A stretch of DNA of 64,000 nucleotides. Source: Stigmatella ashevillena. Lineage in GTDB: Bacteria; Myxococcota; Myxococcia; Myxococcales; Myxococcaceae. Positions within the stretch are counted from its first letter, which is position 1; the number at the start of each line of letters is the position of its first letter. The stretch lies in contig NZ_JAQNDM010000002.1 in the NCBI RefSeq assembly GCF_028368975.1, positions 4,024,425-4,088,424 on the forward strand, in the 5' to 3' direction. Both the position numbers and the translations under genes were made by a program. The notes under the pieces are model-generated. The model was not told the origin of the DNA and did no database searches. It was given only the letters and a program-made list of their open reading frames with translations. Shown here piece by piece: positions 25,775-34,957 of this stretch.

Positions 25775-26869
25775 TCAGGGAACCCGCACCACCCGGTGCG
25801 TGCCCCGCAGCAACTCCAGCCATCGCTCGCCCGCCTCCACCGGGGCGCCTCGCGGATCCACCAGCGCCAGCGCCAGGTGCGTCTCGGCGCGCACCGCGTC
25901 CAGCGAGGTGGGATCCAACTCCAGCAGCCCCCCACCCACGAGCGCCACGCGCACCCAGGCATGCGGCCTCGCCGCCCCGCCCTCCAACACCAGCAGGCCA
26001 TGCACCAGCGCCACCCGGTGCCCCTGCGCCTGCGCCTCTGCCGCGAAGCGCAGCGCGTGGGCCAGACATCCCCCCGCCTCGCCCTCTCCGCCCGCGCGCC
26101 AGTCCGCCGCGCCCGGCCCCTTCTCCGGAAAGGCCGCATGCACCCGCGCGGCCAGGGCCCGGGCTGCGCCAGGCTCCCACTCCGTCATTCCCGGCAGCCG
26201 CTCTGGCACCGGCCACGCGGGCTCGAAGGCCAGCGCCCCCGCGCGCCCTTGCACGGGCACGCCTTGGGCGAAGAGCTCTGGCGGAGGACGCACCTTCTCC
26301 CCAGGGGCCGCCCGCGTGAAACGGGACTCGCCCACCTCCAGCACCTCGAGCCACCCCTGCGCGTCGTAGCGCGCCCGGAAGGGTACCCCCAGCAACGTGC
26401 CCTCCGCCTCACGCCCCTTCGAAGCAGTCAGGCAATGCACTCCCTCCCGGCCCGTCAGCTCCTCCCGGCCCGTCACACACCCCAGGCGAGGCGGCCCTCG
26501 CCACAACCAGAGCGCCTGGGGCACGCTGCCCGTCCCCTCCACCGTCCCGTCCGCGCTCAGCGCCAGCGTCACCTCCTGTTTGCGCTCCCCCACCTGTCCC
26601 CCACGCGTGTGCAGGTGGCGCGAGACATAGGTGAATTGCCCGGCGGACCGCCTCAACGTCACCCGGCCTACCGGCACCCCGCGCCACGAGAAGAGGTAAC
26701 TCAATGAGTCCTCTGGCCCCTGGGGCATGGACGACCCTCCCCCTCTCGGCGGGGTGGACGTAGCAGGTAGGGGCAGGAGAAAGACGCAGAGCAGACCGGC
26801 CCGGGCGCCAAAGCGCGCAAGGAATTGAGGAACGGGGCGGAAAGGCAGGCTAGCGTCACGGCTGCTCAT
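25775..26869 (-). CDS. Secreted transglutaminase-like protein
   Basis: 364 residues with an N-terminal hydrophobic signal ([17 protein letters not shown]). The middle resembles a DUF3108-like beta-sheet region ([27 protein letters not shown]). The C-terminal part carries a papain-like transglutaminase triad: C268 in GGCLAHA, H303 in RPHAWVRV and D319 in ELDPT. Catalytic activity is therefore plausible, either crosslinking or hydrolysis. The ATG at 26869 shares two bases with the ATG of the divergent chemoreceptor gene, so promoters must lie inside the opposite gene. The 3' end is 9 bp from astA. Confidence 0.65.
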
Positions 26870-29800
26870 GGGAGCCAAACGGTACCTCTTCGGCTTCGGA
26901 CTTGTCGGGGGGCTTGTCTCCGCGCTCCTCCTCGGCACGTTGCTACAGACATTCGCCCACCAGGAGTTGGGCTCCGAGGGCTGGCTCTTGCTGCTGACCG
27001 CCACCCCCCTGCTCTACCTGCTGGGCGGGTGGTTGAGCTGGTTCAGCTGGGCAGGGTACCGCAACCGGATCCGCCGGCGCGTCATCACCCGGCTGGCCGA
27101 GGGGGACCTGGCCATCACCACCCAGGCCGAGTTCGAGGGCCGCGAGGACGTGCGCCGCCTGCTGTCCTCCCTGCGCCGCGCCATCTCCCAGGTGCAGCGG
27201 GTGACGACGAACATGCACCGCACCAGCACCAGCGTCTCCGAGCAGGCGCGAATGCTGCTGGAGGCCGCGCGGCGGCAGGGCCAGGCGGTGGACCACTCGC
27301 TGGAGGCGGTGTCCCGCATGGGAGAAACGCTCCAGGGAGCTGGCCAGCGGGTGGCGCAGATGGACAGCTTCGCCCACGAGACGACGAACGCGCTGGTGGA
27401 GATGACGGAGCGGCTCCAGCAGGTGGGCTTCGCCCTGTCCAGCCTGGATGAGTTCTCCCACCACACCAGCGAGCTGGTGCAGGCCATGAGCGAGCGGCTG
27501 GACAACATCGCCGCCGCGGGAGACGAGCTCGCGCTGTTCGCCAACGAGGCCGAGAGCTTCGTGTCCGTGGTGGGCACGGGCATCGATGCGGTGCGCCGCC
27601 GTGCCAGCGAGACGAACGAGCTGGCCCAGGCCGTCACCGCCACCGCCCAGCGGGGCGAGGAGCTGGTCAACGACAGCGTCAAGGGCATGTACCGGGTGAA
27701 GGAGACGGTGCGCAAGGCCGCGGAGATCGTCGACTCGTTGGGCACGCGCTCGCGGGAGATTGGCCGCATCGTGGACGTCATCCAGGAGATCGCCGACCAG
27801 ACGAACCTGCTGGCGCTCAACGCCGCCATCATCGCCGCCCAGGCCGGTGAGCACGGAAGGCCCTTCGGCGTGGTCGCCAACGAGATCCGCGGGCTGGCCG
27901 AGCGCTCCGCGCGCTCCACCCGGGAGATTTCCACCCTGGTGTCGGGCGTGCGCGCGGAGGTGGACACCACGGTGGTGCTGGTGAGGGAAGGCCGCGAGCA
28001 GGCCACCACGGGCGCCCTTTTGGGAGACCGGGCGGCCACGGCCCTGGTGGAGATCCGCAACATCACCCAGCGCACCTTCGCGGCGGTGGAGTCCACGGTG
28101 GAGGAGACCCGGCGCCTGGAGCAGCAGGGCTCCACGGTCATCGAAGCCAGCCAGCGGGTGGCCACCCGGGTAGACGATGTGACGAGGGCCGCCATCGAGC
28201 ACGCCGGACAGGCCCGGGAGCTGGTGCGAAAAACCGGCGAGATGGTGCGTCTGGCGCGCGATGCCTCGGAGAAGGTGGAGGGACAGGCCCGCGCGGGAAA
28301 CATGCTGTCCGAGTCGGTGGTGCGACTGACGGCCGCCATCGATGGCATCCGCAAGGCACACGCGGTGCTCACCCGGGGCGAAGTCTCCATCCGTGACGAG
28401 GTCGCCCGCGTCCGGGAGGATGCGCGCCGGGTCATTCGCAGCGGCGATGAGCTGAGCCGCACCGTGGATCAGCTCGGACACGAGACGGTGAGCCTGGAGT
28501 CGGAGGTGTTCCGCTTCCGCCTGCCCCAGCCCCACTCCGGAGGCGAGCTGCGCGTGGGCATCCACCAGGCGGCGGCCCTGCGCGCGCGCCTGACGCTGGA
28601 TCCGCTCTTCAGCGTGGAGAACCAACTGGCGGAGCTGTGCGCCTGCGTCTTCTCCAACCTGCTCCGGCTCGAGGATGGGGTGCTCGTGCCGGACCTGGCC
28701 GAGCGCTGGGAGATGGACCCCTCGGCCCGCATCTTCTGCTTCTCCCTGCGCCGGGGCGTCTCCTTCCATGATGGAACCGCGCTGACGGCCTACGACGTGA
28801 AGCGCCACTTCGAGCGGCTGCTGGACCCCATGGTGCGCTCGCCGGACCGCTCGCTGCTGGAGGACATCGAGGGGGCCGGGCCCTTCACGGCGGGCACCAC
28901 GCGCGACGTGAGCGGCCTGCGCGTCCTCAATGAGGCGACGCTGGAGATCCGCCTGCGCGAGCCCAAGGCGTTCTTCCTCCACCTGCTGGCCCTGACGCCC
29001 ACGGCGATCGCCCGGGTGGACTCGGATGGGCGGTTGCTGGGAACCGGCCCCTACCGCCTGGAGCGCTTCGAGACCGACCGCATTCTCATGGAGCGCAACC
29101 CCACCTATTTCCGCCGCGAGCTGCCGTGGCTGGACCGGCTCGAGTTCCGGCTGATGGACTCGCGACAGGAGGCGCTGGATCAGCTCCAGGACGGCAAGGT
29201 GGAGTTCGTCTCCTTCCTCTACGCGCAGCAGGCCCAGTCCCCCGGAATGGAGGAACTTCAGACGGCCGCCAGCTCCACTCCCTCCACCGCCTTCGTGGGC
29301 CTCAACCTACGCGAGTCGCTCTATGACGACATGCGCGTGCGCAGGGCCATCCGCGCGGGGTTGGACATTCCCTCGTTGGTGGAGCAGTTCCACCCCGGCG
29401 CGCGCATGGCGCGGACGCTCACCCCACCCGAGCTGCTCCAGGGCCTGGAGCCCGGAAGCATGCCAGGGCCAGACCTGGCGCGGGCCGAGCAGCTCCTCCA
29501 GGAGGCCGGGGTGCGCATGGTGCCGCTCACGCTCTACCACCCCGCAGGGCGGGACTCCTCCGAGGAGGACGCGGTGTTGTTCCGGCCGCTCGTCGAGGCG
29601 GGGCTGCTGGAGCTGCGCCACGTGGAGCTGCCCTCACAGGACTACACCACCCGCCTGCGCGAAGGGCGCATCCCCGCCTTCCGCACCCTGTGGATCGCCG
29701 ACTACCCGGATCCGGACAACTTCCTCTACTTCCTGCTGAACTCGAACGCGCAGAACATCTATCCGCTCGGCTACCGCAACCTGGCGCTGGACCGGCTGAC

Positions 29801-30014
29801 GGCCGAGGCCCGGGTGTCCATTGATCCGGACCTGCGCCACCAGCTCTACCTGCGCGCCGAGGCGATCTGCGAACAGGACTGTCCCCTCATCCCCCTCTAC
29901 CACGACCGCATCTACGCCGTGGCGAGCCCCGCGGTGCAGGGCTTGCGGCTGCACATGACGCCGCCCCAGGTGCGCTTCGAGGACCTGTGGCTGGACTCCG
30001 ACGCGGCCCGGTAA
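26868..30014 (+). CDS. Chemoreceptor-type signalling protein fused to C-terminal SBP_bac_5 oligopeptide-binding domain
   Basis: 1048 residues. Two membrane helices (about 5-27 and 38-60) with almost no periplasmic loop are followed by a coiled-coil methyl-accepting signalling domain (about 100-540). Its hairpin tip reads [20 protein letters not shown] near 308-327. From about 557 to 1045 comes a complete family 5 substrate-binding domain: [76 protein letters not shown]. With both helices at the N-terminus, the binding domain should lie in the cytoplasm, which is unusual since SBP_bac_5 proteins are normally secreted. It may sense intracellular peptides or similar ligands. The tip departs from classic receptors at two contact positions. 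Confidence 0.85.
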
Positions 30015-32965: not shown

Positions 32966-34957
32966 ATGACCGAACGCCCCATCGGCGGCAGGTACATCTT
33001 GGAGCGAAGAATCGCAGGAGGAGGGATGGGTGCCATCTGGATGGCGCTCGACAGCCAACTCCAACGGCACGTGGCGCTCAAGCAGATGGCCTCCCATCGC
33101 GTCTCCTCCGCCGAAGACCGGCAGCGGTTCGCCCGAGAGGCGAAGGCCATTGCCCGGCTCCACCACCCCCATGTCGTCCAAGTGCACGACTACGGGGTCG
33201 ATGGCGATGTGCCCTACATCGTCATGGAGCTGCTCGAGGGAGAGGACCTCGAAGCCCTGCTGGAGCGGCGGCAGCGGCTCACCCCCGCCGCGGTGACCCC
33301 GCTGCTCCTCCAGGTGGCGCGGGCGCTCGACGCGGCCCACGCGGCCGGCATCGTCCACCGGGACCTCAAGCCGGCCAACCTCTTCCTCGCCCGCGTAGAC
33401 GGCGAGGAGGTGCTCAAGGTGCTCGACTTCGGGCTGGCCCTGTTGAACGAAGGCACCGAGCCCGCGCCCCAGGGCAAGGAGCTGGCAGGGACGCCCCGGT
33501 ACATGAGCCCCGAGCAGATGCGGGGCCTGACCCGGCTGGACCGCCGCAGCGATCTCTGGTCCCTCGGCATCGTGCTCTACCGGTGCCTCACCGGTCAGTT
33601 CCCGTTCTCCGTGGATGCGTTGGAGGCCCTGCGCGACGGCACCTCCGCGCCCAGCTTCCTGCCCATCTCCCAGGTGGCGCCCGAGCTGGGCAAGGAGGCG
33701 GACGGCTTCTTCGCGCGCGCGCTGGCGCCAGAGCCTGCCCAGCGCTTCGCGTCCGCCCAGGAGATGGCGGTGGCGTTCTCCGCGCTGGTGCTGGCGGGCA
33801 GGCCCAACCGGCCCTCGAAGATCCTGATCGTGGACGACGAGCCCGACACGATCCTCGTGATGCAGCAGCGCTTCCGCAAACAGATCGAAGCCGCGGCCTA
33901 CGAGCTGATCTTCGCCACCAACGGGGAGGAGGCCCTCGAGAAGCTGCGGCAACACCCGGACACGGATGTCGTCCTCACGGACCTCAACATGCCGAAGATG
34001 GACGGGCTGTCGTTCCTGGCCCGGGTGGGCGAGGTGAACTCCCTCGCCAAGGTCATCATCGTCTCGGCCTACAGCGACATGAGCAACATCCGGACGGCGA
34101 TGAACCGGGGGGCCTTCGACTTCCTGGTGAAGCCCGTGAGCTTCCAGGACCTGAAGACCACGCTGGAGAAGACGCTCAAGCACGTGGGGGAGCTGCGCCG
34201 GATGCTGCGCTCCACCGAGGAGAACGACCTGCTGCGGATGTTCGTGCACGGCGGCGTCGTGGAGCGGGTGCTCTCGGCGGTCCGCACCCCCCTGGGGGTG
34301 GCCGGGGAGCGCGTGGAGGCCACCGTGGTGTTCATCGACGTGAAGAACTTCCTTCCCGTCACCCGCAGCGAGCTGCCCGACGCGGCCATTCGCCGGCTGA
34401 ACGCCAACTTCGAGATCATCGTCTCCGAGCTGGTCTCCTCGGGGGGCGTGGTGGACAAGTTCGTGGGAGACGCGGTGATGGCCGTGTTCCGGGGCCAGGG
34501 CCACCTGGGCCGGGCCATCGATGCCTGCCTCCAGACACGCCAGCGGCTGAGCGACCTGGCCTTCCGCAGCGGCGAGCACTCCGCCTACACGCACGGGGTG
34601 AGCATCGGCCTGGCCTCCGGCGAGCTGCTCTCCGGGAGCATCGGGGCCAAGGCGCTGGGCCGCCTGGACGCCACGGTGCTCGGGGACGTGGTGAACACGG
34701 CCGCATGGCTCGCCGCCCTGGCCAGCAAGGATCAGCTCCTCATCCCCGCAGCGCTCCGCGAGCGGCTGGAGTCCAGCTTCGAATGCCAGGGGGCAGGCGC
34801 CCACCTGCTTCCGGGCCAGAAGACGCCCGTGCCTCTCTACAACATCGTGCACCGGAAAGATGCCGTGGTCTCGACCTCGGATCCCACGGCGTCGACCCCC
34901 CCGCGCAAGGAGCGAGCTGATCCCCGCATGGTCGCACTCAATGAAGGAGGGGACTAA
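32966..34957 (+). CDS. Ser/Thr kinase - receiver - class III cyclase fusion
   Basis: 663 residues. A Hanks kinase lies at about 8-275: GGGMGAIW loop, VALKQM lysine, HRDLKPANLF, VLDFGLALL, MSPEQ. The receiver at about 285-405 has VDDEPD, phospho-Asp in LTDLNMPKMDG and LVKPVS. The class III nucleotide cyclase domain (about 445-620) has metal aspartates in FIDVKNF and KFVGDAV, and GDVVNTAAWL late. In that last motif the transition-state Arg of the usual N-xxx-R is Trp, so activity may be low or lost. The kinase looks active. The gene is followed 3 bp later by an FHA-GAF-cyclase. Together they probably link phosphorylation to cAMP signalling. Confidence 0.9.
   Translation: MTERPIGGRYILERRIAGGGMGAIWMALDSQLQRHVALKQMASHRVSSAEDRQRFAREAKAIARLHHPHVVQVHDYGVDGDVPYIVMELLEGEDLEALLERRQRLTPAAVTPLLLQVARALDAAHAAGIVHRDLKPANLFLARVDGEEVLKVLDFGLALLNEGTEPAPQGKELAGTPRYMSPEQMRGLTRLDRRSDLWSLGIVLYRCLTGQFPFSVDALEALRDGTSAPSFLPISQVAPELGKEADGFFARALAPEPAQRFASAQEMAVAFSALVLAGRPNRPSKILIVDDEPDTILVMQQRFRKQIEAAAYELIFATNGEEALEKLRQHPDTDVVLTDLNMPKMDGLSFLARVGEVNSLAKVIIVSAYSDMSNIRTAMNRGAFDFLVKPVSFQDLKTTLEKTLKHVGELRRMLRSTEENDLLRMFVHGGVVERVLSAVRTPLGVAGERVEATVVFIDVKNFLPVTRSELPDAAIRRLNANFEIIVSELVSSGGVVDKFVGDAVMAVFRGQGHLGRAIDACLQTRQRLSDLAFRSGEHSAYTHGVSIGLASGELLSGSIGAKALGRLDATVLGDVVNTAAWLAALASKDQLLIPAALRERLESSFECQGAGAHLLPGQKTPVPLYNIVHRKDAVVSTSDPTASTPPRKERADPRMVALNEGGD

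Follow-up and report, generated by a model that had tools for sequence, protein, structure and literature searches.

Chemoreceptors are usually pictured as outside sensors whose ligand-binding domain lies ahead of the signalling hairpin. A solute-binding protein (SBP) can feed a methyl-accepting chemotaxis protein (MCP), as in chemoreceptors activated by SBP docking (PMC9602780), in which a separate periplasmic SBP touches the periplasmic domain of the receptor. The SBP_bac_5 proteins OppA, MppA and DppA are themselves exported and serve ABC importers. A precedent for a cytoplasmic SBP_bac_5 domain comes from the transcription factors SgrR and DsvR, which combine an HTH with a C-terminal SBP_bac_5 domain that acts as the sensor (PMC13060122). 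The same 2026 preprint cites glutamate binding by SgrR.

The closest described protein to the one analysed here is McpK of Myxococcus xanthus. Moine et al. 2014 (PMC3945109, Table 1) assign McpK a 'bacterial extracellular solute-binding proteins domain' and three transmembrane (TM) helices, a TMHMM count. That work treats it as an orphan receptor in one group with DifA, Mcp7, McpB and McpJ, and its placement with DifA in length class 44H led to the proposal of a Dif link. The McpK GFP fusion was outside the ten bright ones. The mcpK mutant is absent from both the no-defect list and the motility-defect list, which implies, without stating it, a developmental phenotype. McpK was thus published as a table row and in the receptor phylogeny only, and its topology, ligand and spread were not discussed. 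Searches of the open-licence literature found no mention of MXAN_6456, the mcpK locus, and no paper that joins SBP_bac_5 and MCPsignal or discusses the architecture. The earlier note on this DNA had raised the point that the architecture might already be well described; the combination is indeed listed for McpK, but it was neither described nor interpreted. As far as these searches reach, the topology, wide spread and single origin of McpK-type receptors appear to be previously undescribed. What is new here is a full-length ortholog set, the spread of the family, the acidobacterial fusions, a single fusion event as a sufficient account of them, the missing export signal, and a subclade devoid of TM helices.

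Gene and domain layout

The window, i.e., the whole stretch of 64,000 nucleotides of Stigmatella ashevillena DNA that was analysed, carries an mcpK-like gene at positions 26868 to 30014 of the plus strand, to which all domain coordinates below refer. It is one open reading frame of 1048 aa, from ATG to TAA, and its start codon is backed by orthologs opening with the identical MGAKRYLF. Judged from sequence, the gene is the ortholog of McpK (MXAN_6456, 1048 aa). Both have the same length, an identical domain order, with N-terminal TM helices, an MCP domain and a C-terminal SBP_bac_5 domain, and shared neighbours. MXAN_6456 itself was matched by length and domain positions, and the sequence compared was that of the M. 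xanthus strain AM003 locus, whose protein is 1048 aa long when counted from its ATG and 67% identical to the Stigmatella protein.

TM helix 1 spans residues 7 to 25 (26886 to 26942) according to hydropathy, is kept in the orthologs and is a helix in the AlphaFold2 model. TM helix 2, at residues 38 to 58 approximately (26979 to 27041), is indicated by hydropathy, the AlphaFold2 model and charge counts; it is separated from the first by a loop of about 12 residues and followed by strongly positive residues. Residues 65 to 105 (27060 to 27182) form a HAMP-like stub on the basis of a sequence motif (...RLAEGDL...), and the Pfam search returned no HAMP match in the protein. The MCP signalling domain follows at residues 251 to 438 (27618 to 28181; PF00015, E 1.7e-34), with the hairpin tip region at residues 305 to 340 approximately (27780 to 27887), as supported by ortholog identity over residues 300 to 345. 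A connector predicted to be a coiled coil, all-helical in the AlphaFold2 model and with no hydrophobic segment, leads from the hairpin to the SBP domain (residues 441 to 548, 28188 to 28511). The C-terminal SBP_bac_5 domain, of the oligopeptide-binding, cluster C type, occupies residues 549 to 1042 (28512 to 29993), as supported by PF00496, sequence matches in the PDB and Foldseek; the Pfam match itself covers residues 606 to 961 (E 5.4e-58). Both Pfam matches are far above cut-off and nearly of full profile length. NCBIfam gave sub-threshold matches alone, to peptide-binding-protein and MCP models. The domain description and coordinates proposed in the earlier note, with a full SBP_bac_5 domain behind the methyl-accepting hairpin, were therefore correct.

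The MCP hairpin is shared with DifA and other myxobacterial MCPs, and in a DifA-like protein of the set (L044) the two TM helices are likewise N-terminal and enclose hardly any periplasmic loop. In contrast, no SBP_bac_5 match falls on any of the 22 further MCP loci of this genome. The SgrR model matched the 1048-aa protein weakly (E 4.8e-5), and neither Pfam nor NCBIfam detected an N-terminal DNA-binding HTH of the SgrR type. The output of SgrR and DsvR is that HTH, whereas here it is an MCP hairpin with the SBP domain behind it.

Membrane topology

Hydropathy was calculated as the 19-residue Kyte-Doolittle mean. The earlier claim that both membrane helices are N-terminal was borne out, with segments at about 7 to 25 and 38 to 58 and no segment above 1.25 after residue 76. 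In the 49 orthologs, the N-terminal tail has on average 1.9 K+R, the loop 0.65 and the part behind TM2 6.0, and this bias around the helix pair argues for an N-in, C-in orientation. No hydrophobic segment common to these orthologs was found between the hairpin and the SBP domain. Over the 70 residues ahead of the SBP domain, the nearest free SBPs hold a segment of mean hydropathy 1.8 to 3.6 that corresponds to a signal peptide or lipobox, whereas the fused proteins do not exceed about 1.6, with no export signal (two higher values come from a mis-set domain start in L074 and L142). The mark of exported SBP_bac_5 transport subunits is thus found in the free relatives and missing from the fused proteins. 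An adjacent ABC transporter, another feature of exported SBP subunits, is also missing, although many SBP genes sit apart from their transporters, which makes this a weak criterion.

Five proteins of an acidobacterial subclade (L221, L222, L223, L225 and L229) start straight in the soluble coil with no membrane helices, and the first 200 residues contain no segment above 1.24. Both the MCP and the SBP domains were verified by Pfam for L222 and L229. Since these members lack both TM helices and a signal peptide, any location of their SBP domain other than the cytoplasm would require wrongly assigned start codons. Charge bias, connector and TM-less homologs, that is, every in-silico test, favour the proposal of the earlier note that the binding domain faces the cytoplasm. 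The predicted cytoplasmic location of the SBP domain is therefore supported, with a helix pair that would leave hardly any periplasmic part.

The opposite arrangement would have a third membrane helix, in the hairpin or between the hairpin and the SBP domain, and would make McpK an ordinary receptor with an exported sensor. The three TM helices given for McpK in PMC3945109, if read literally, place the SBP domain outside, and several Myxococcus orthologs contain a hydrophobic stretch at residues 353 to 371 with a mean of 1.4 to 2.1 over 19 residues. This stretch lies about 20 to 30 residues beyond the tip, within the return arm of the MCP hairpin, and a membrane crossing there would wreck the CheA/CheW-binding bundle. 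In the S. ashevillena protein it reaches a mean of only 1.24 and includes charged residues. A third TM helix at 353 to 371 was rejected in the hydropathy analysis of the 49 orthologs because of its placement inside the hairpin, and is very unlikely; we infer that the stretch explains the published count of three. With no ortholog-wide hydrophobic segment further downstream, and with acidobacterial members that have no membrane helix at all, a periplasmic C-terminal domain is highly improbable.

Spread and origin of the fusion

The gene is present in 88 of the 96 sampled genomes of Myxococcaceae, nearly always in single copy; two copies occur in a few genomes, all of a single genus (Archangium, by matching contigs). 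The hosts named include Myxococcus, Corallococcus, Pyxidicoccus, Archangium, Hyalangium and others, and one genome of the same genus as S. ashevillena encodes a protein that is 97% identical. The same layout was found in 49 full-length orthologous loci, with open frames of 1039 to 1053 aa. The fusion is also present in another family of the same class (L196). A search with an acidobacterial protein as the query yielded 30 full-length fusions, spread over 29 of the 396 genomes of an Acidobacteria phylum, taken as that of a genome labelled Acidobacteria by its title (L144). No fusion was detected at E 1e-150 in the phyla of Desulfonema (395 genomes) and Rokubacteria (95 genomes), in searches that scored the 2 or 8 best candidates of each genome and whose positive control was silent. 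The 49 orthologs and 30 acidobacterial loci with the same layout rule out a sequencing or assembly artefact as the source of the fusion.

Among the orthologs, mean pairwise identity was highest in the MCP hairpin (0.76), reaching 0.90 at tip residues 300 to 345, compared with 0.64 to 0.70 in the coils and 0.66 in the SBP domain. The SBP half is thus conserved about like the coils and less than the hairpin. The tip departs from the usual NAAIEAARAGE, and the variant is common to McpK, its closest paralog (L043/L002) and the acidobacterial L144. The altered positions correspond to receptor trimer contacts in E. coli. In one genome (G098), two overlapping frames replace the single gene, with the break exactly where MCP and SBP parts join (residue 558), probably owing to a frameshift or a sequencing error. 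A gene almost like that of Myxococcus was found in a record titled Comamonas sp. KCTC 72670, and this record is probably mislabelled or contaminated.

In a tree of 54 SBP domains, all 32 fused ones lie on one side of a branch with a bootstrap of 99 and an SH-aLRT of 94, which was found in 200 of 200 bootstrap trees. A quick tree built earlier from 86 rows gave the same result except for L214, a fragment at a contig edge. Because the fused domains are all on one side of that branch, one fusion event would be enough to account for them; either transfer between phyla or vertical descent may lie behind their spread.

Binding pocket, signalling and gene neighbourhood

The best match of the SBP domain in a PDB sequence search was 8upi (E 4.3e-40), followed by OppA, MppA, DppA and others. 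AlphaFold2 predicted an OppA-like fold for the C-terminal 500 residues or so, with pLDDT values mostly of 70 to 94 in the SBP domain and of 40 to 60 in much of the coil (pTM 0.50, 27-row alignment). Foldseek matched the model to 8upi (E 5.2e-33), MppA (1.6e-32) and OppA (3.6e-32). Profile match and fold thus both identify a solute-binding domain, which resembles OppA, MppA and DppA in fold, in length and in the W-x-A-D anchor motif; it differs from them in lacking a signal peptide and in being fused to a receptor. Asp945 (codon 29700 to 29702), in the motif W-x-A-D-x-P-D-P-D-x-F, aligns with Asp419 of OppA in the PDB search alignment. OppA Asp419 holds the amino group of the peptide and anchors its N terminus. 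Trp942, Asp945, Asp948 and Asp950 are each present in 47 of 47 fused domains, and the equivalent of Asp945 is found in 37 of 38 free relatives. As the W-x-A-D motif is common to most exported SBP_bac_5 relatives, its presence in the alignments shows a kept pocket and names no specific ligand.

We propose that McpK-type proteins are membrane-anchored chemoreceptors with a cytoplasmic SBP_bac_5 domain as the ligand-binding domain, and that an intracellular ligand, probably a short peptide or an amino-acid-like compound, feeds a chemosensory pathway; we put the probability of this reading at roughly 0.7. The N-terminal helix pair would serve as an anchor only. The ligand, most likely a short peptide or a compound with a free alpha-amino group, would be held between the SBP lobes, and closure of the clamshell would alter the packing of the C-terminal coiled coil (residues 441 to 548). 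This change would reach the signalling hairpin and its CheA kinase from the end opposite to the usual HAMP input. The SBP would thus be covalently attached on the cytoplasmic side, unlike the separate periplasmic proteins of the docking systems, and both elements of the usual picture of chemoreceptors, outside sensing and a ligand domain ahead of the hairpin, would be reversed. The kept anchor residue and the growth of myxobacteria on digested protein suggest that the likeliest cue is an internal peptide or amino-acid pool.

As has been suggested for regulators of the SgrR type, the intracellular ligand might instead be a non-peptide compound, for instance glutamate, a murein fragment, a sugar phosphate or some other metabolite; this possibility overlaps with our proposal except in ligand class. 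Among the PDB matches, the ligands of SBP_bac_5 proteins with known structures range from peptides and amino-acid conjugates to nickel, haem, opines and sugars, and such a range is in its favour, as is the location of the gene after those of alanine dehydrogenase and acetyl-CoA hydrolase/transferase in two acidobacterial genomes. However, the peptide-anchoring residues are retained, and peptides or amino-acid derivatives are the ligands of the nearest proteins of solved structure; we consider a non-peptide ligand rather unlikely. Less probable still is an SBP domain with no small ligand that acts as a scaffold or protein-interaction module and links the receptor to another protein, e.g., to the cytoplasmic side of a transporter. 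In its favour, related binding-protein folds do act as non-transport modules elsewhere, the family has no known ligand and no transporter gene is nearby; yet the overall SBP fold is intact, with the pocket motif W-x-A-D-x-P-D-P-D kept across two phyla and Asp945 invariant.

If a cytoplasmic, ligand-binding SBP domain is confirmed, McpK-type receptors would provide a handle on internal nutrient monitoring in bacteria, including predatory myxobacteria, and would show how a signal could enter an MCP via its C-terminal end. A single-origin family with TM-less members and a kept anchor residue makes both topology and ligand easily testable. More tentatively, and at somewhat less than even odds, these receptors may form an ancient inside-sensing class that arose when an exported oligopeptide-binding protein was captured once and that now extends across Myxococcota and Acidobacteriota, with a cytoplasmic clamshell driving the hairpin C-terminally so that behaviour is steered by the internal peptide pool, reflecting nutrients or prey digestion.

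M. xanthus and Hyalangium have the same run of genes, AstA, transglutaminase-like, McpK, lipoprotein-like and DedA-like; in the window, these neighbours (the last a DedA/VTT gene) are accompanied by kinase genes, and no peptide transporter or che gene lies beside the mcpK-like gene. The acidobacterial neighbours vary between clades. In the two acidobacterial loci mentioned above (L231, 1412 to 7099, and L233, 1331 to 7045), the genes for alanine dehydrogenase and acetyl-CoA hydrolase/transferase precede the fused receptor in the same orientation, separated by short gaps only, and these genes probably form an operon. Given the absence of adjacent transporter or che genes and the differences between acidobacterial clades, the neighbourhood was rejected as a guide to function. 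In a tree of MCP domains from the same genome, which included 12 of the 23 receptors since a motif filter missed the other 11, the closest paralog was the McpJ-like L043 (support 83). As this placement is not decisive, the tree assigns no CheA partner, and both Dif, proposed on the grounds of length class (PMC3945109), and a partner suggested by the McpJ-like paralog are candidates.

A TTGAGG ... AAGGCnGGnTAGCGT motif upstream of the start (window 26810 to 26869) is conserved in many orthologs. Its TAGCGT element lies only about 12 bases ahead of the mcpK-like ATG, with no clear Shine-Dalgarno sequence, and the transcript may possibly be leaderless. The divergent transglutaminase-like gene (25775 to 26869, minus strand) has an ATG that may overlap that of mcpK (CATG, 26867 to 26870); the overlap is not conserved, as the neighbouring frame of M. 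xanthus stops just before the mcpK start. Further downstream, positions 32966 to 34957 of the plus strand encode one protein with Ser/Thr kinase, response-regulator receiver and adenylate/guanylate cyclase domains, an unusual combination.
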